The notes under the pieces: generated by a model
Database searches by the model: none
Told to the model about the DNA's origin: nothing
What the model saw: the letters and a program-made list of their open reading frames with translations, nothing else
Source of the DNA: Bacteroidota bacterium
Lineage (GTDB): Bacteria > Bacteroidota > Bacteroidia > 2-12-FULL-35-15
Length of the DNA stretch: 64,000 nt
Assembly (NCBI GenBank): GCA_029237775.1
Contig: JAQZBR010000003.1
Span: 124,001 to 188,000 of the forward strand
Direction of reading: 5' to 3'
Shown: piece after piece, positions 27,003 through 48,300 of the stretch
Position numbering within the stretch: position 1 is the first letter of the stretch
Layout of the letters: each line of letters begins with the position of its first letter
Translations under genes and position numbers: made by a program

Positions 27003-27608
27003 ATGAAAATCGAAGCATCAAGTCCTGAAGAGTATTTATCACAATTACCTCCGGACAGAAAAGAGGCAATGACCAAATTGCGAAAAGAGATGATCAGCAA
27101 TCTGCCTGCTGGGTTCCAGGAACGAATGAGTTACGGGATGATCGGATATGTTGTTCCGCACAGTATCTTTCCGAAAGGATATCATTGCGATCCAAAACTG
27201 CCATTGCCCTTTGTTAATATTGCGAACCAGAAAAACTTTGTTGCTGTTTATCACATGGGGATCTATGCTGATTCTAAATTGCTGGAATGGTTCAGGAAAG
27301 AGTATCCAAAGCATACGGATGCAAAACTAGATATGGGTAAAAGCTGTATCCGTTTTACAAAGCCGGAAAAGATCCCCTTTAAGCTGTTCGGAGAATTAAT
27401 GTCTAAGATGTCGGTTAAGGATTGGATCAATGTGTATGAATCCAATTTTGAAGACACTCCTGAAAACCGTGCTAAGCGTACCGCTTTAAGAGGGGAGTCA
27501 GTTGCAAAAAATGCCGCAAAAAAGGCTGTAAAGAAAACCGCAGTAAAGAAGCCTGTTAAGAAGAACGCTCCAAAGAAAGCGGTCAAAAAATCACTGAAGA
27601 AAAAATAG
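27003..27608 (+). CDS. DUF1801 protein with histone-H1-like basic tail
   Basis: Residues about 1-155 form a DUF1801 (YdhG-like) domain: SPEEYLSQLPPDRKEAMTKL, ERMSYGMIGYVVP, FVNIANQKNFVAVYHMGIYA and DMGKSCIRFTKPEKIPFKLF. The family fold resembles YjbR/FrataxIn-type small alpha/beta proteins; function unknown. From about residue 165 the chain becomes a lysine/alanine tail (KNAAKKAVKKTAVKKPVKK) ending NAPKKAVKKSLKKK, nearly the same as the end of the adenylate kinase at 682-1914. The stop abuts the next gene's ATG. Confidence 0.83.
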   Translation: MKIEASSPEEYLSQLPPDRKEAMTKLRKEMISNLPAGFQERMSYGMIGYVVPHSIFPKGYHCDPKLPLPFVNIANQKNFVAVYHMGIYADSKLLEWFRKEYPKHTDAKLDMGKSCIRFTKPEKIPFKLFGELMSKMSVKDWINVYESNFEDTPENRAKRTALRGESVAKNAAKKAVKKTAVKKPVKKNAPKKAVKKSLKKK

Positions 27609-29159: not shown

Positions 29160-29906
29160 CTAAAGCCGCAGTCCTAAAGTGACAGCAATATTGTTATCAC
29201 GGAAGTTGATATTGTTAGAATCATCATTTCCAGGATAGTGTATTCTTGAAAAGCCGCGTTTAAAAGTTACTTCGAAGAAGATAGCTTTGGATGAGGCCCT
29301 GTAATTTTTTTGCACTCCCAGCCCTCCATGATAAAAGGCATTAAAGCCGGGGAGAAGAAGTTCATGCTCAAAACCTATTGAGCCTTTACCATCGAAAGGA
29401 GTTGTTTCGGTTGAATCATTGATGATGACTACATAAGATCCAAAAATATATCTGAAGCCGATGCCACCGAACAAATAAGGCGTTGCGGCACTTTCCTTGT
29501 CGCTGTTAAACGCAAGCTTTAATCCTATTGGCAGCTGCGCTTCATTGTATCTGATCTCATGCGTATAAGCAAAAGATTCATCATACAAATAAGTAAATCC
29601 GGGCTTTTCGTAATAACCATGAAAGGTGAGTCCTTGGCTAAGATATTCCAGTCCGCATATAAAATTTGTTTTTCTTCCGAGAATGAGCTCTGCTTTGTAA
29701 GCGACATTCGCCCCTATTTTTGCTTTTGTCCCGATTGAAAAATGCGGATCATTTTTATATAAAGTGAATACAGCACCTGCACTCATGCGATGGCGAAGCT
29801 TTGCATCTTTGCGGCCCTCTTGTGAATAGGACAGAAGAGGTAGTACGAGTAAAATAAATTTCACCACGGAGGCACAGAATGCACGGAGGTTCACAAAGAA
29901 TTTCAT
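29160..29906 (-). CDS. outer-membrane beta-barrel protein with repeat-derived signal peptide start
   Basis: A 248-residue protein. After the signal peptide (ILLVLPLLSYSQ) the mature part alternates hydrophobic and polar residues as in 8-stranded OmpA/PorT-like barrels (KLRHRMSAGAVFTLYK, NFICGLEYLSQGLTFHGYYE, FGGIGFRYIFGSY, GFNAFYHGGLGVQKNY) and ends NNIAVTLGLRL, a typical C-terminal strand. The first residues MKFFVNLRAFCASVVK are the translation of the ACCACGGAGGCAC repeat at 29860-29900, so the start codon and signal n-region come from a mobile repeat. ATG overlaps the GxxExxY stop (ATGA), suggesting coupling. A GTG inside the repeat (MVKFILLV) is an alternative start. Function unknown. Confidence 0.75.
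   Translation of the reverse strand: MKFFVNLRAFCASVVKFILLVLPLLSYSQEGRKDAKLRHRMSAGAVFTLYKNDPHFSIGTKAKIGANVAYKAELILGRKTNFICGLEYLSQGLTFHGYYEKPGFTYLYDESFAYTHEIRYNEAQLPIGLKLAFNSDKESAATPYLFGGIGFRYIFGSYVVIINDSTETTPFDGKGSIGFEHELLLPGFNAFYHGGLGVQKNYRASSKAIFFEVTFKRGFSRIHYPGNDDSNNINFRDNNIAVTLGLRL
29860..29900 (+). repeat. left inverted repeat of the GxxExxY element
   Basis: TTCACCACGGAGGCACAGAA then TGCACGGAGGTTCACAAAG. Translated on the minus strand it gives FFVNLRAFCASVVK in the adjoining outer-membrane protein gene. Confidence 0.75.
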
Positions 29907-30325
29907 TGTAATGGTAGTTTTGAAAATTCTTCAGTGACTAATGATACGACCGATCGCGAAATATTCATCGTATGAAAATTAATCAATAGACCTTTCGGCT
30001 TATTAGTTAATTTTAGATATGTTAGTAGCTGTGCTTCAAACACCGGTATTAATGCTTCGACAGCCTTCAGCTCAATAATAATATGATCATTAACAAGGAG
30101 ATCAAGTTTTAAAGGAGTACCCAGGCTTCTGTTTTTATAACTGATAGGGACAGCGACCTGCGATTTAACATCCAGGTTGTTTAATCTTAACTCTTCAATA
30201 AAACACCCATGATAAACAGATTCTAATAACCCCGGTCCGACCTGTTTATGAACTTCGATAGCGCATCCAATGATTTTGAATGATAGTTCATTTAGTCCTT
30301 TTTGTGTAACCACTTTTTTCTCCAT
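29903..30325 (-). CDS. GxxExxY protein (PD-(D/E)XK nuclease-like family)
   Basis: A 140-residue protein. The name-giving motif is GLLESVY within GPGLLESVYHGCFIEEL; LDLLVNDHIIIELKAVE supplies the Asp and Glu-x-Lys of a PD-(D/E)XK core (Pfam PDDEXK_3). The C-terminal part KGLLINFHTMNISRSV (LLINF) is also typical. I start at the ATG at 30325; an in-frame ATG at 30365-30367 adds MNLFTTEARRTLSN, which is translated repeat end and overlaps the amidohydrolase gene. Function unproven; a nuclease acting in element maintenance is inference. Overlaps the downstream gene by ATGA. Confidence 0.85.
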   Translation of the reverse strand: MEKKVVTQKGLNELSFKIIGCAIEVHKQVGPGLLESVYHGCFIEELRLNNLDVKSQVAVPISYKNRSLGTPLKLDLLVNDHIIIELKAVEALIPVFEAQLLTYLKLTNKPKGLLINFHTMNISRSVVSLVTEEFSKLPLQ

Positions 30326-30326
30326 G

Positions 30327-32063
30327 TTACTTAGTGTTCTCCGTGCCTCCGTGGTAAACAAGTTCACCGTTAACGTAAGTTGAAATAACCCTCACCTTCG
30401 GCACACTATCCAATTCACACTTCATAATGTCCTTATCCAGAATTACAAAATCAGCGTATTTTCCTTTTTCAATGCTTCCTTTTTTATCATCTTCATAATT
30501 CGCGTAAGCTCCCCAGATCGTCATGCCGCGCAGAGTGTTTTCGCGAGATAAAGCATTCTCGATTTGAAAGCCTCCTTCCGGAAAACCTTTAAGGTCTTTA
30601 CGTGCAGTCGCAGCATAGAATGTGTACATCGGATTGATATTTTCAACCGGAAAGTCCGTTCCTAAAGCAATCCTTCCGGATGCTTTGAGAATATCATTAT
30701 ATGCATAAGCATTTTTCATCCGTTCTTTGCCGATACGTTCCTCGGCCCAATACATATCTGAGCTTGCATGAGTCGGCTGAACCGAAGCTATCAGGTTTCC
30801 GTTCTTGCTCATCTCCTCGAGTAGCTTCAGATCTTCAGGCGAACAGATCTGGAAATGTTCTAGTCTCCAGCGGATGTTTTTAAAATTCGTTTTTGACGTT
30901 GAGTCCGAGATCTTGCATTCTTTCATAGTCGCTGAGTAGAGCTTAAGAAAGAATCTCACTGCTGAGTCACCAATGCAATGCGTATTCATCTGAAAGTTTT
31001 TGTCAGCCATGTTGATGGCTGCGCTGTCATAATGTGCTTTTGCATGCAGGAAAAAACCGCTGGTTTCTGGTTTATCAGAATATGGCTGCAGTAGACAAGC
31101 TCCGCGGGATCCTAATGCTCCATCACCATAGAATTTAAATGAGCGCACAGTTAGCCTCGGTGTAACATAAACACTGTTCTTGAAATAATAATCTTTGTTT
31201 TCTTTATTATCACTAAGCATTGCATACAAACGCATTTTTAGATCATCAGATTTTTGAAGGTCGTCAATGGCATTGATGATGTTTTTATCAAGACCTGCAT
31301 CATCAACAGTAGTGAGTCCTACCGAGAAGCAATTCTCTTGAGCAGTCAGTAAATATTTTTTTATAGCCTCTTTCGTTGCTTTCGGGATCACATTTTTAAC
31401 AAGGTCAACGGCATTGTCAACTAGAATCCCCGTTAGCTTCCCGTTTTTCATTTCAATAACACCGCCACTGATCTTGGTTTCAGGCGTTATTCCTGCTTCA
31501 CGTAAGCCAGCAGTATTAACAAGCGCAGCATGACCATCAATTCTCTCGAGGAAAACAGGTTTGTCAGGAAATAGTGAATCCAGGCTCTTCAGATCTGGAT
31601 ATTCTTTTTTTGTCCAGTCGTTCTGATCCCATCCTCTTCCAATGATCCATTTGTTGTTCGGATCGTTCTTGAATTCTTTGATCCTTGTGATCACCTCACT
31701 GAAAGATTTTGTCGCAACAAGATTTATTTCGTACAAACCTTTACCATAATGGTAAAAATGACAATGTGAGTCTATGAAGCCCGGATAAACTGCTTTACCC
31801 TCAGCATCAATATTTTCTTTCGCTTCGTATTTCTGACTGATCTCTTCGTTGGATCCCACAGCTATGAATTTTCCGTCTTTTATAGCAAAGCTTTGGGCAT
31901 TGCTGAAAGTGGAATCAACAGTATAGATCACTGCATTATGTACGATGAGGTCTGCTTTTTCCTTGGATTGTGAGCAAGCGATGAGAAAAATTAAAAATAT
32001 ACCACTAAGGCACTTAGGCCACAAAGTATTGATCTCTGATCTCTTATTTTTTAGCTTTTTCAT
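30327..32063 (-). CDS. amidohydrolase family lipoprotein (YtcJ-like)
   Basis: Metal-dependent hydrolase of the YtcJ/amidohydrolase-3 type, 578 residues. Lipoprotein signal with lipobox LIAC (Cys near residue 30). Metal-site landmarks: VYPGFIDSHCHFYHYGKG, WIIGRGWDQNDW, LERIDGHAALVNTAGL, MNTHCIGDSAVRFFL, RLEHFQICSPEDL and GTDFPVENINPMYTFYAA. The end EKGKYADFVILDKDIM and VISTYVNGELVY is normal; the following HGGTENTK comes from the GxxExxY element's repeat. The first 21 residues (MKKLKNKRSEINTLWPKCLS) are encoded by another repeat pair at 32001-32092. So both termini of this protein are element-derived. Substrate unknown. Confidence 0.85.
   Translation of the reverse strand: MKKLKNKRSEINTLWPKCLSGIFLIFLIACSQSKEKADLIVHNAVIYTVDSTFSNAQSFAIKDGKFIAVGSNEEISQKYEAKENIDAEGKAVYPGFIDSHCHFYHYGKGLYEINLVATKSFSEVITRIKEFKNDPNNKWIIGRGWDQNDWTKKEYPDLKSLDSLFPDKPVFLERIDGHAALVNTAGLREAGITPETKISGGVIEMKNGKLTGILVDNAVDLVKNVIPKATKEAIKKYLLTAQENCFSVGLTTVDDAGLDKNIINAIDDLQKSDDLKMRLYAMLSDNKENKDYYFKNSVYVTPRLTVRSFKFYGDGALGSRGACLLQPYSDKPETSGFFLHAKAHYDSAAINMADKNFQMNTHCIGDSAVRFFLKLYSATMKECKISDSTSKTNFKNIRWRLEHFQICSPEDLKLLEEMSKNGNLIASVQPTHASSDMYWAEERIGKERMKNAYAYNDILKASGRIALGTDFPVENINPMYTFYAATARKDLKGFPEGGFQIENALSRENTLRGMTIWGAYANYEDDKKGSIEKGKYADFVILDKDIMKCELDSVPKVRVISTYVNGELVYHGGTENTK
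30329..30358 (-). repeat. right inverted repeat of the GxxExxY element
   Basis: Minus-strand reading TTTACCACGGAGGCACGGAG then AACACTAAGT. In the amidohydrolase frame it encodes the final YHGGTENTK and supplies the TAA stop. Confidence 0.75.
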
Positions 32064-32092
32064 TAAATCTTATTGTCCTTAGTGACTTAGTC
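32001..32092. mobile_element. short gene-less inverted-repeat element at the amidohydrolase start
   Basis: ACTAAGGCACTTAGG... (32004-32026) and the inverse complement of 32069-32091 agree at 18 of 23 positions; the left end begins ACCACTAAGGCAC at 32001. The roughly 40 bp between them hold the amidohydrolase start codon (32063). MITE-like relative of the GxxExxY element (inference). Confidence 0.5.
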
Positions 32093-42317: not shown

Positions 42318-45300
42318 TTATCTTACAAGAGTAACGGTGCCTCTGTACTTATGCAAATTTCCTTTAAAGTCGAGAAACTCGACCAGGTAGACATACACAT
42401 CCTGTTGCGCTATATCTCTTCCGTTGTTAGCTCGTCCATCCCATTTTCTCGCGAGATCATTCGTATGAAAGATCATGTTGCCCCATCTGTCAAAAATCCA
42501 CATATCATACTGACCGATGTTTGTTCCTTTGCCTCCAAACCCGTCATTAGTTCCAATACTTGCTGCAGGTGTAAACGCATTTGGGATGTAAAATGAAAAA
42601 TCAGGTTCCACATTGAAACAATGAACGACTGTATCCATGCAATTGTAAATATTCTGCACGGTGAGAGTAGCACAGTAGTAACCGTCTTCAGAATAATTAT
42701 GTGATGGTTCCTGAAGATAACTTACGCTTGTATCGTTAGTGTCTCCAAAATTCCAGAACCACTGAGTTGCACCAATAGACTGATCTGTAAAAAAAACTTC
42801 TGAGTTTAACGTACTCGGAGGACGTGGAGTATAAGTAAACTCCGCATCAGGAACAGGGAAGACATTTATTAGGTCGATGACTGAATCTGTTGCAGAACAT
42901 CCTTCTGATGTTGTAGCTGTGAGTGTAATGGTATACAATCCCGATAAAGAATAACAATGTTGCGGATTCTGGTCAGTTGACTGAAATGAATTGTCGCCAA
43001 AGTCCCATACCCAATTTGTGAGGGTGCCACTTTGAGCAAGACTCGCATCATTAAACTGAGTGCAATAGGTTGCGCAGCCATTTGAATCCGCCACCGTGAA
43101 ATCAATTACCGGCAAAGGGAATACAGTAATAGGTTTAGTGATGGTATCAACACAGCCGTTGTTGCTTGTAGCCACAAGGGAGGTATTGTAAGTTCCCGGA
43201 TTAAGATAAACATGAGTTGGATTTTGAAGTGTTGAAACCGGTGAGCCATCTCCGAAAGCCCATAACCATGAACTGACCGAGCCTCCGGGTAAAGTTGAAA
43301 GATCGTTGAAGGTAGTTGTTGAATACAGACAAGCATTATTACTTCCAAAATCGGCAATCGGCAAGCCATTTACTTCCACCGACTGTTGTATGCTTCCAAC
43401 GCAGCCGTTTGATGAGCTGACCGTTAACGTAACATTAAATGTTCCCGGACTTGAATACGTATAAACAGGATTTTGTGAAGTGTTAAGTGGGCTAAAGTCA
43501 CCGAAGTTCCAGGACCATGAAACAACTGTTCCGGATGAAAGCGTAGTGCCATCAGTAAAAGTAGTTGCGTTATTTACACATACCGGTGGCGCAGTAAATG
43601 AAACAACAGGTAAAGGATACACTGTAACGAGTGAAGTGTCAGCGCTCTGACATCCACTGGTAGAAGTGACAGTAAGTATTACATTATAAGTTCCGCTGCT
43701 TCCGTAGGTATGCGAAGGGTTTTGAGAATTGTTTAAAGGAGAGGTGTCACCGAAGTCCCAGGACCAGCTATTAATAGAGCTTCCTGAAACACTTGACGCA
43801 TCCGTAAACGAGGTGACTGCACTCTTACAAACATTAGTTGCTGTAAAATCAGCAACCGGTTGTCCTGAGATGATCTGATTCTGCGCAGTAGTGCTCGTGC
43901 ATCCACTATCCGAAGTCACTGTAAGAATGATCATATAAGTTCCTGCATTACTGAAAACATGCGTAGGATTTTGCTGGTTAGAAATATTACTTGAACCTGA
44001 GCCCGGATCACCAAAATTCCATGACCACCCTGTAATACTTCCACCGCTAATGCTGGAAGTACTTGTAAATAATGTGAATGAATTAACACAGGTAGGAGTT
44101 GCTGAATAACTCGCAACCGGTAATGGGTGAACAATTACGCTGTCGCTGAAAGTTGCATTGCATCCCTGCAAAGTTGTGACAGTTAAAGTCGCATTAAACG
44201 AACCTGCAGAAAAGTATGTGTGAGTAGGATTCTGCAGCACAGATAAATTGTTGGCTCCTGAAGATGGCTCACCAAAATTCCATGACCAGCCAACAATAGA
44301 ATCATTGCTTGCACTTGAAAGATCGTTAAATGATGACGTGGTATTAAAACATGCTGGTGTAGATGTGAAATCAGCTGTTACCGAAGATGGAGTGGAACTT
44401 ACAGTTAAAGGTAGTTGTTTCTGACAACCATTTTCATCGGCAACAGTAACAGTGTAATTTCCTGCCGCGAGATTAGTCGATGTTGCAGCGGTACCGCCAA
44501 CCGGTGACCATGAGTAAGTATATCCGGGGCTTCCCCCTGAAGCGTTCACTGTTGCTGTCCCGTTCGACAATCCGCATGTTGTTGAAACAGTTGTGCCTGT
44601 TAAGCTGATATCGATCGCGGGCAATACTGTTACAGAGTCATTTGTGTAGCAACCTGTGCTGTCAGCAACTGTAGCTGTATATGTTCCCGGAGCCAAACCT
44701 GAAATTGTAGAAGCGTACGTTCCATTTATCCACCAGTAATAAGTATATGGAGGTGAGCCACCGGTTCCTGTAGCTGTTGCGGTTCCGTTTGATTGTCCGA
44801 AACAAAGCGGAGAAGTAGCACTCATGTTTATTCCCACTGCCGACAATGGTTGTGTTATTGTTGCAGTTGCAGTTTTAACACATCCGATAAGGTCTGTTAC
44901 AGTAACGGTATATGTTCCGGGAGTCAGATTAGTCGCTGATGCGTTCAAACCTCCGGCAGGGTTCCAGGAATATGTATAGCCTGGCATTCCATTGCTCGCA
45001 TAAACAATCGCTGTTCCGTTGCTCCCTCCATTACAGCTGACATTAGTGGAGCTTACTGACAAGCTTATCGGAGTTTCCTGGTTGATAGTCACCGATGTGG
45101 TAGCCGAGCAGGAACTTCCTGTCGCATCAGATATAATAACAGTATACGTTCCGGCAGGCTTAGTAACAGATTGAACGGATTCTCCAGAATTCCATAAGAA
45201 TGAATATGGTGATTGTCCACCCGCTCCGCTGGCTGTGATTGTAGTAGATGCGCCCGGGCAAACAACCGGGGGAGTTCCAATGCTTGCAGTTACCGGTGTA

Positions 45301-48300
45301 TTCTGAATTACATTGACACAAGCATTGGAAATACAACCACCGCCATCCGTAACCTGTACACAATAACTTCCGGCCGTGGCAATGATCGATGGTGTTGTTG
45401 CTCCTGTATTCCATAAATATGTATAGCTTCCAAAACCGCCTGCCGCATTCGCTGTGATAGTGGTTGATTGACCAAAACAAACATTTGCAGGAGTGGGAAT
45501 GGTGGAGGTGAGTGTGCTGTTGGATGCCATTACATTAACTGATGCGCTCGCTGTACAATTATTAGCATCCGAAGCGACAACCGTATAAGTCCCTGTATTC
45601 ACTGTTATTGATGAAGTGGTGGCGCCATTGCTCCATTGATAGTTGTATGGTCCTGTTCCTCCCGATGCTGATGCAGAAATGTTTATGGTACTGTTACATG
45701 AGATCAATGCTGATGGTGATGCAGTTACTGTTAATACCGAAGGTTGAGAAATGTTGGCGGAAGATGAAGTTGCCGTGCATCCTTTTGAATCAGTAATGGT
45801 TGCAAAGTAGTTACCGGCAGGTAAGTTGTTTGCAGTTACACCTGTTTGCACCGGATTCGAATTCCATGAATAGGTATATGGTCCGGTTCCACCGGAAGCG
45901 GTTACGGATGCAGAGCCATTGTTTCCTCCGAAACAGCTAACATCCGAACTAGAGTTTATTACTCCGGATAAAGGCAAAGGTTGTGAAACACTCGCTGTCT
46001 GCTGAACCACACATCCTTTCGAATCAGTAACGGATACCGTATAATTTCCTGCTGAAAGATTTGTTGCAGTAGCGTTGTTACCGCCCGAAGGTGACCAGAG
46101 ATATGAATACCCGGGGGAGCCACCCGTTGCTGAAACTGTCAGGTTCCCATTTGTGCCGCCATTACACGAAACATTGGTAAAAGAAGTGATGCTAGCCAGT
46201 AATTGACTGGGCTGCGTGATTGTTGCTGACACATTCTGAATACATCCGTTTGCATCTGTAACTGCAATGACATAATTTCCCGCAGACAGATTGGTTGCAC
46301 TTTGACCGACACCTCCGAAAGGGTTCCAGGAATAACTGTATGGTGATGTTCCTCCTGTAGGCACTACAGTTGCTGAACCATTATTTCCGTTATTGCAGCT
46401 AACATTATTGTTAATTGTAACCGAAGCGTTGAGAGCAGTGGGTTGTATGACTGTAACAGGCATTACCTGGGAACAACCAATTGCATCCGTTACAGTTACA
46501 GTATAGGTTCCTGTTAAAAGATTCGAAGCTGTTGCAGATGATCCTCCGTAAGGCGCCCAGGAATAATAATAGGAGGGTGTTCCTCCATTTACTGCTGCAG
46601 AGGCCGTACCATTATTTCCACCGAAACAACTCACTGATGTTGACGTTGTATTCACGTTAAGTGGGGTCGCCTGCGATATCGTTGCAGAAGCTGATATATT
46701 ACATCCGATCGCGTCCGTTATCGTAACCGTATAATTTCCTGCAAGTCCTGATATCGACTGAGTGGATTGACCGTTACTCCAAAGGTAGGTGTACGGTGCC
46801 TGTCCGCCATTAACAAAAGCTGTAACAGTTGCAGTACCACCATTACATACTGTTGATGGTGTAGGAACATTTACAAGCAGCGGAGAGCTCTGGGTAACAG
46901 TGACACATGCATTTGTTGTACAGCCGCCTCCATCGGATACTGTGGCGCAATAGCTTCCTGCTCCGACTACAATGCTTGAAGTTGTTGCACCTGTATTCCA
47001 GGAATAGCTGTATCCTCCGAACCCACCAGTTGCAGCAGCAGTAAGTGTTGTGGTTGCTCCGTTACAAAGCACCGGGGGTTGAGCGACTGTTGCTGTGAGG
47101 GTACTGTTTGAAGCAATAACGCTTACTGAATTATTTGCGGAACAACCAACAGCATCGGTAACTGTGACAACATAAGTTCCTGTATAAACAATTGTAGATG
47201 AAGTTGTCGCCCCGTTACTCCATAAGTAATTCAAAGTTCCGGTACCTCCTGTAGCATTAGCAGATATGATCGCGGTAGTACTGCATGAAATAGAATTATT
47301 AGGAGAGGTGGTGACAACTATCTGTGGGTTTGCTACAATCGTGACTGTTGCTGTTGCTGCACATGCGCTTCCTCCAACGCCAGTAACAGTTACACTGTAA
47401 GTTCCCGGAAGCATATTGGTAAGTGTTTGAGTGTTTTGCCCGGTATTCCAAATGAAAGAATAAGGTGCAATGCCTCCCGTAACATTCGCAGTAAGGGTTG
47501 CAGTGGTTCCAGAGCATAAAAAGGATGGTGCAGATATAGTCACATTAACGGGAGGCGAAATGTGAATTACAACCTGATCCGATACCGCAGTGCAGGCTCC
47601 GTTGCCTGTAGAGGTCCATGTTAAAATAACTGTACCTGAACTTAATTCTGAAAAGGTTGGTGTGTAAACAGCATTTAACGCGGTGTTTGATGGAGAGAAG
47701 GTTCCGTTTCCTCCTGACCAGATCCCTCCGGCTGCACCGGAAACAGAAGCTCCTAAGGTGACGCTTGTTCCGCAGACAGTTTGGTCAGGCCCGGCATTTA
47801 CTACAGGTACTGGACTAACTGTAACCGGAACGTTCGTGATTTGTGCCGGACAAGCAGGATAATTCACATCGTAAACGATAAAAGAATACGTCCCACCTGT
47901 AGTTGCAGTGTATGTTAATCCGGTAGCTACAACTGTTCCGCCACCGTTCGGCCCGTTGGTCCACGCGTATGTATAAGGCGGTGCCCCCCCGTTAACGGTG
48001 CCCGTGAGTAAAATTCCACCTGCATTAGCACAAAATACAGCAGGATTTGGATTTACAGGGTTAAGGATTGGTGGTGAAAAATGAATTCTGATAGTGTCAC
48101 AAAATAAACCGGCAGAGATACAAGCTCCTGCGACAGGAGTTCCGCAAACAACATAATCAACATATGGTGGTGCAGTGGCTGTGCCTGTCACTACAGTTGA
48201 ATCACAACCGGTGGTGCAACTCAGGTAGGAGTTATATGCGCCTGTTGCACCCGGATAAACCGAGGTCCAGTTAATTGTAGAATTTACAAGTAATCCTGAT

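Follow-up and report, generated by a model that had tools for sequence, protein, structure and literature searches.

What role does a gene of a large protein family without known function play between two inverted rows of short repeats that recur, gene-free, in the same DNA? The question is raised by a 64-kb stretch (hereafter the window) of the 4.08-Mb genome of a Bacteroidota bacterium (G000), in which a gene encoding a GxxExxY protein of 140 amino acids occupies positions 29903-30325 of the minus strand and is enclosed by two inverted-repeat arms. The comparison presented here makes it fairly probable that gene and arms form one autonomous copy within a family of inverted-repeat elements that lie between genes, resemble REPIN-RAYT systems and have a PD-(D/E)XK nuclease as their driver.

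Each arm consists of four 7-nt units of the CACNNAG type placed at successive steps of 8, 9 and 10 nt. The arm located 3' of the gene (29860-29898, plus strand) opens with TTCAC and reads inward CACGGAG-G-CACAGAA-TG-CACGGAG-GTT-CACAAAG, its units covering 29865-29871, 29873-29879, 29882-29888 and 29892-29898. The arm located 5' of the gene (30320-30358, minus strand) opens with TTTAC and reads inward CACGGAG-G-CACGGAG-AA-CACTAAG-TAA-CATGGAG, with units at 30353-30347, 30345-30339, 30336-30330 and 30326-30320. Because the ATG of the gene sits inside this fourth unit, no spare DNA separates the gene from its arms. An earlier note on the window had reported 30-bp imperfect inverted repeats tightly enclosing the gene and recurring without a gene at three other places. 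This inverted repeat is confirmed (29860-29878 and 30340-30358, 19 nt, 89% complementary) and does recur, but the arms exceed the length described and show more regularity, and the gene-free sites amount to four arms in two complete inverted pairs. A scan of the window for the 8-9 geometry indeed returned exactly six arms, forming three inverted pairs, one around the gene and two gene-less ones of 90 and 140 bp. The first gene-less pair combines CACTAAG-G-CACTTAG-GC-CACAAAG (32003-32026, plus strand) with the more degenerate GACTAAG-T-CACTAAG-GA-CAATAAG (32069-32092, minus strand), which had been overlooked; the second combines CACTGAG-G-CACTAAG-AA-CACTAAG (60724-60747, plus strand) with CACTAAG-G-CACTTAG-TT-CACTTAG (60840-60863, minus strand). 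At a threshold of at least 14 of 15 matches, the 8-9 geometry gave five hits in the window and other spacings gave none to two. Likewise, ACCACGGAGGCAC with at most two mismatches occurs five times in the window against 0.43 expected, a count reached in none of 100 shuffles.

The identity of the encoded protein, already proposed in the earlier note, is clear from its scores against TIGR04256 (138 bits, cut-off 35) and PF13366 (PDDEXK_3; 133 bits, cut-off 22). Four putative active-site residues are nearly invariant among 122 aligned sequences: E35 (99%), D75 (100%), E85 (98%) and K87 (100%). The AlphaFold2 model reached a predicted local distance difference test score of 93.9 and a predicted template modelling (TM) score of 0.86. 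Among solved structures, Cas4 (SSO0001) and lambda exonuclease have the nearest folds, although with TM-scores of only about 0.5, and tRNA-splicing endonucleases come further down the list. A sequence search of the PDB gave no match for the protein, a search for defence systems gave no more than a weak match to a Cas4 profile (E 0.043) and no transposase domain was found in it. The model and the conserved residues predict a minimal, presumably active PD-(D/E)XK nuclease.

The arrangement seen in the window recurs elsewhere. Seven GxxExxY genes are present in G000, each with its own inverted arms; one of them (contig C3, 468686-469009) has a TGA within its reading frame and seems to be a copy in decay. 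Among the genomes compared, taken one per species and many of them metagenome bins, at least one GxxExxY gene was found in all 35 relatives of the genus that were searched and in 18 of 23 other genomes of the class, with up to 11 genes per genome in the genus, 20 in another genome of the class and several different units per genome. We surveyed 92 different GxxExxY genes, taken from the genus, from the class and from named records (among them Ignavibacteria, a Thiotrichales metagenome-assembled genome, Thiomicrorhabdus and Nitrospinota), whose hosts range from Bacteroidota to Gammaproteobacteria; as many of these genes are orthologs, the counts do not represent independent cases. Local alignment of the 250 nt upstream with the 250 nt downstream gave a median score of 41 for GxxExxY genes and of 18 for pseudo-genes placed in the same loci, and inverted arms scored above the 99th percentile of the controls at 84 of the 92 genes, compared with 0.4% of matched in-locus controls. 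GxxExxY genes elsewhere are thus generally flanked by such repeats, the opposite of which had been named earlier as an outcome that would speak against a mobile element. Chains of inward C[AG]CNNA[GT] units were found on both sides of 53 of the 92 genes and, on the opposite strand, of none. Most of 34 further GxxExxY loci behave in the same manner. One locus of a relative (G035, contig C11, 28053-28385) has its GxxExxY domain within an open frame of 591 residues, a possible fusion or read-through.

The spacing of the units is graded. In gene-bearing arms whose units end in G, the first step is mostly 8 nt, the second mostly 9 and the third nearly always 10, and the exact 8-9-10 series is present in 26 of 35 such arms having at least four units; units ending in T are spaced by 9 and 10 nt. 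Gene-less arms follow the 8-9 rule in 101 of 112 cases and 8-9-10 in 24 of 26, the first step of 8 being fixed by the pattern used to fetch many of these loci and the later steps being free. Outwardly, the arms run into TT[T/C]AC...GTAAA. The arm is a composite site and not a simple tandem repeat. We know of no described element with a graded composite site of this kind.

The unit changes in step with the protein. Mapped on a tree built from the proteins of the 92 genes, the 18 unit classes (about 30 of the 92 labels were assigned by eye) require 33 changes, compared with 65.8 for shuffled labels and with none of 200 shuffles as low; the last base of the unit (G or T) requires three changes and the second base (A or G) seven. 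As linkage explains part of this co-divergence, units were also sought in trans. A GxxExxY gene of the relative G032 has the unit CACAAAAG, seen at no other inspected gene, and a pattern search of 36 genomes for this unit, with the outcome predicted from the gene beforehand, yielded 142 copies from G032 and a single one from G018, the remaining 34 genomes having none. At 100 listed places in G032, 18 neighbouring pairs of copies face inward (64-321 bp across) and two outward. Gene-less copies therefore do carry the unit of a gene present in their own genome, in agreement with the earlier view of them as relatives of the coding copy. Copies of CACTAAGNCACTAAG number from 0 to 44 per genome and the reversed pattern is absent from all 36. 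CACTAAG copies are commoner in genomes that have a gene with the CACTAAG unit (P 4e-4, or 6e-5 when two genomes with incompletely listed genes are left out) and the CACAGAT unit follows the same trend more weakly (P 0.002), all three values treating genomes as independent.

Two observations on gene-less copies may be added. In G032, mixed intergenic clusters (L350-L369) assemble CACTAAG, CACATAAGG, CACAAAAG, CGCAGAG and GTTCAAA-type units separated by GCTCCGAAGGAGC palindromes and ACACAGC strings. In G035, several gene-less pairs (L208, L212, L218, L219 and L224) have a common terminator-like hairpin inside, GGAACCacaaGGGTTCC, which may point in either direction; its recurrence suggests that a carried terminator was copied.

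A second family of small proteins shows a parallel layout. Inverted arms of 7-nt units scoring above the threshold of the GxxExxY survey surround 28 of 31 loci encoding four-helix-bundle proteins (S23, TIGR02436). Such genes lie between inverted 7-nt arrays in G000 (L028-L033) and in the genus (L129-L158), each with its own unit. Proteins of the S23 family are known from intervening sequences of 23S rRNA that have inverted repeats on both sides (PMC4990558) and from rRNA insertions of bacteria of the candidate phyla radiation (PMC11270868). The GxxExxY and S23 families may represent alternative cargoes or drivers of one element layout.

The elements come and go between related genomes. The window site, where an amidohydrolase gene is followed by an outer-membrane-protein gene, holds the GxxExxY element in G000, G009 and G028, which form one clade (100/99 support), so that a single gain followed by inheritance is most likely. 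The site is empty in seven relatives, and in G035 it has only a gene-less CACTAAG palindrome; its sister G003 is empty, and the palindrome is, to judge from the genomes compared, an independent insertion. Close relatives are thus not uniformly filled; it was uniform filling, with the same boundaries and divergence, that the earlier note had also listed as unfavourable to its reading. Two gaps of the suf operon, sufA-sufB and sufB-sufC, differ in content among the species of the genus and contain nothing, CACTAAG, CGCGAAG or CACAGAT palindromes, S23-type 7-nt palindromes, S23 genes or single arms; both sites show independent insertions of different families. The gap of the pdh operon displays the same alternation. 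Copies are amplified in tandem at two loci (L067 and L160), in the first of which (G025, contig C13, around 1970-2567) gene-less CACAGAT palindromes adjoin a GxxExxY gene, and mixed clusters of elements fill intergenic gaps in G032. The many insertion sites are intergenic and unrelated, without a conserved target outside the arms. At 124 arm pairs no target-site duplication was detected, the longest direct repeat of the flanks averaging 3.91 nt compared with 3.88 +/- 0.09 for swapped flanks, a comparison with low power for very short duplications in such A/T-rich DNA; the missing signal speaks against ordinary transposition. An AAATAA repeat at sufB-sufC of G031, compared with the empty site of G023, was considered as a duplication and is too A/T-rich to count. 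Close locus pairs at 80-89% identity displayed tandem changes of the arms and no clean gain of a whole element.

GxxExxY genes are strongly oriented with respect to the host. Among 105 with clear neighbours, 91 lie in the sense direction between two co-directional genes and two are antisense, and 29 of 30 S23 genes are in the sense direction, the background rate of co-directional neighbours being 79%. In the simplest reading, the GxxExxY gene is expressed from the host operon, seemingly without a transcription unit of its own. Such expression makes the arms part of the neighbouring proteins, as is the case in the window.

Taken together, these data fit a model in which an autonomous copy would be a GxxExxY gene between two inward-facing arms, and a non-autonomous copy a pair of arms with little or nothing inside. 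Each arm is a composite site in which the spacing of the three or four 7-nt units rises from 8 to 10 nt (9 and 10 nt for units ending in T), and the GxxExxY protein would most likely recognise the unit of its own clade in this graded geometry. Acting as a nuclease, it would most likely nick or cut DNA at pairs of arms, and copies would spread into A/T-rich intergenic gaps by means of host repair, without target-site duplication. The protein would thereby drive the copies in much the way that a RAYT transposase is thought to drive REPINs. What the comparison shows directly is the anatomy, the joint divergence of unit and protein, the matching gene-less copies in trans and the lineage-specific insertions; binding, cutting and a driving role of the nuclease are inferred. 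The earlier proposal that the gene is the coding version of a mobile element and the gene-less copies its non-autonomous forms is supported in this sense, with movement deduced from comparison and with copies that are not classical miniature inverted-repeat transposable elements (MITEs).

Several facts weigh against such a nuclease-driven family. The argument rests on comparative presence and absence, and neither movement, excision nor binding was observed; the 124 arm pairs lack a duplication signal; and most gene-bearing copies appear, from their distribution, to be vertically inherited. Linkage alone could account for part of the co-divergence of unit and protein, and an attempt to name specificity residues by associating residues with units was abandoned as confounded, with too few independent unit changes. 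The relation between genes and copies also has exceptions: G033 has a CACTAAG-unit gene and no exact-pattern copy, and G032 has 44 CACTAAG copies while none of its three inspected GxxExxY genes (four are unlisted) has that unit. Finally, plasmids and viral contigs seldom carry the elements (8 of 72,556 records for plasmids, three loci for viral contigs).

The strongest rival, because of the sense bias, is an element acting at the RNA level. Its arms would pair in the host mRNA with the open reading frame in the loop, and the copy would be processed or even re-inserted via RNA, as with the S23-bearing intervening sequences of 23S rRNA, the protein acting on RNA or together with a reverse transcriptase. 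The strong sense bias of both gene families speaks for this route, yet such a bias is also to be expected if the gene simply needs host transcription. Gene-less pairs yield long hairpins (z -5 to -12), which are however a trivial outcome of inverted repeats, and the two arms of one element are more alike than arms across elements of the same class (unit match 0.75 and 0.43, respectively), whereas the spacers of the two arms show little agreement (0.63 for 2 nt and 0.53 for 3 nt). S23 proteins of the same architecture in rRNA intervening sequences (PMC4990558) provide a precedent. Against the route, the nearest folds of the GxxExxY protein are mainly those of DNA nucleases, with the tRNA-splicing endonucleases lower. 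An RNA-level route seems unlikely.

The arms could alternatively be the binding sites of a regulon, in which each GxxExxY protein controls the adjoining genes and the dispersed copies are not mobile. Their position near stop and start codons and within operons would suit this role, as would the co-divergence of unit and protein. In close relatives, however, the suf and amidohydrolase sites bear unrelated unit families, S23 elements or nothing, the 142 copies of a single unit are private to one genome, copies stack in tandem and in mixed clusters, and the nuclease active site is conserved. A pure regulon was rejected, and regulation as the primary explanation is quite improbable.

An ordinary DNA transposon accompanied by MITEs, with GxxExxY as a cut-and-paste transposase acting at terminal inverted repeats, would account for such repeats, for a single gene without spare DNA and for gene-less derivatives. 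This is very improbable in view of the missing duplication signal, the lack of a transposase domain or of a PDB sequence match and the rarity on plasmids and in viruses; besides, what lies inside the gene-less pairs mostly bears no relation to the gene, and a terminator-like hairpin is often present there. Classical MITEs and their parent insertion sequences do share with the present elements terminal inverted repeats, short non-autonomous copies and a single-gene autonomous copy, but here no target-site duplication was detected, the protein has no known transposase fold and the gene-less middle is not recognisably a deleted gene; the lack of a detected duplication sets the present elements apart from a classical MITE family. 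That a host gene lies by chance between two independent repeats, common as these are in such genomes, deserves practically no credence after the survey of 92 genes, given the absence of spare DNA and a unit specific to the protein clade. Cargo of a phage or plasmid and a CRISPR-associated gene were also considered and rejected, as was a homing endonuclease element, the sites being many, unrelated and intergenic and sharing no target outside the arms.

Among known systems, the nuclease-driven elements proposed here come closest to REPIN-RAYT (REP/BIME with TnpA-REP, or 'REPtron'). In both cases a gene lies within an inverted pair of short sequences, numerous pairs without a gene are dispersed in intergenic DNA and often in tandem, no target-site duplication is detected and the location is mainly chromosomal. 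The driver differs, being an HUH (Y1) transposase in REPIN-RAYT and a PD-(D/E)XK nuclease here, and so does the repeat, which in REPIN-RAYT is palindromic and bears a GTAG/CGTC-type tag (PMC8266576, PMC3733652) and here is an untagged direct row of CACNNAG units with graded spacing. A further difference is the number of GxxExxY genes per genome, up to 11 in the genus and 20 elsewhere in the class, with several units side by side. Having neither an HUH transposase nor tagged palindromes, the elements do not belong to that group. With the S23-bearing 23S rRNA intervening sequences they share a small sense open reading frame between inverted repeats in a host transcript, and the S23 genes of the genus share this layout between protein genes; the window gene differs in encoding GxxExxY, in lying between protein genes and in having 8-9-10-spaced arms rather than tandem 7-nt units. 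STRR and other heptanucleotide repeats, such as those of cyanobacteria and the TAACTGA repeat of Beggiatoaceae, also form short intergenic rows of 7-nt units, but with a constant period of 7 nt, unlike the inverted pairs with 8-9-10 spacing and a cognate gene described here; the passages of PMC4679880 that were consulted gave no link of heptanucleotide repeats to such a gene. Cas4 and lambda exonuclease apparently share fold and catalytic residues with the modelled protein, which is reduced to a core of 140 residues, has no sequence match in the PDB and hits a Cas4 profile only weakly. The elements have no match in Rfam. The open-access library that was searched contained nothing relevant on GxxExxY elements, the family accessions or the repeat strings, an earlier description elsewhere being possible.

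More tentatively, and with slightly less than an even expectation of being right, we propose a new class of bacterial mobile elements in which a lone PD-(D/E)XK nuclease reads a ruler-like site of 7-nt units at 8-9-10-nt steps, arranged in inverted pairs, and which spread without target-site duplication, with a sister class built around S23 four-helix-bundle proteins and 7-nt units. If true, this would give one shared role to two large orphan families of small proteins, for which the likely context is now that of genes of intergenic inverted-repeat elements in host operons. The data also account for one of the kinds of short repeat that fill the intergenic DNA of many genomes and modify the termini of host proteins. 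S23 and GxxExxY genes have been reported inside CRISPR-cas or reverse-transcriptase loci and beside cas genes (PMC3936711, PMC8934634); they may owe this place to insertion into an operon and not to a functional partnership. Each unit class together with its gene offers a ready test of sequence recognition, and the question of the driver is directly testable.

The immediate neighbours of the window gene illustrate how far the arms enter host proteins. Upstream in its direction of transcription, an amidohydrolase gene (PF07969; 30327-32063, minus strand) has a reading frame that ends in ...YHGGTENTK inside one arm of the element, and its annotated N-terminus reads into the first gene-less pair (32003-32092). 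Downstream, the start codon of an outer-membrane beta-barrel protein gene (PF13568; 29160-29906, minus strand) overlaps the GxxExxY stop codon, and the N-terminus MKFFVNLRAFCASVV of this protein is the translation of the other arm. Arms are thus translated as N- or C-terminal extensions at 29860-29906, 30320-30369 and 31995-32092 (motifs LCASVV, WPKCLSG and HGGTENTK), and the annotated starts of such genes may therefore be artefacts of the element. Elsewhere in the window, a long gene at 42742-47200 contains repeats of about 230 nt (11 copies of a 42-nt core) and probably encodes an adhesin-like repeat protein, and lysine/alanine-rich repeats of the histone H1 type (1573-1906 and 27506-27549) lie at the ends of two genes.

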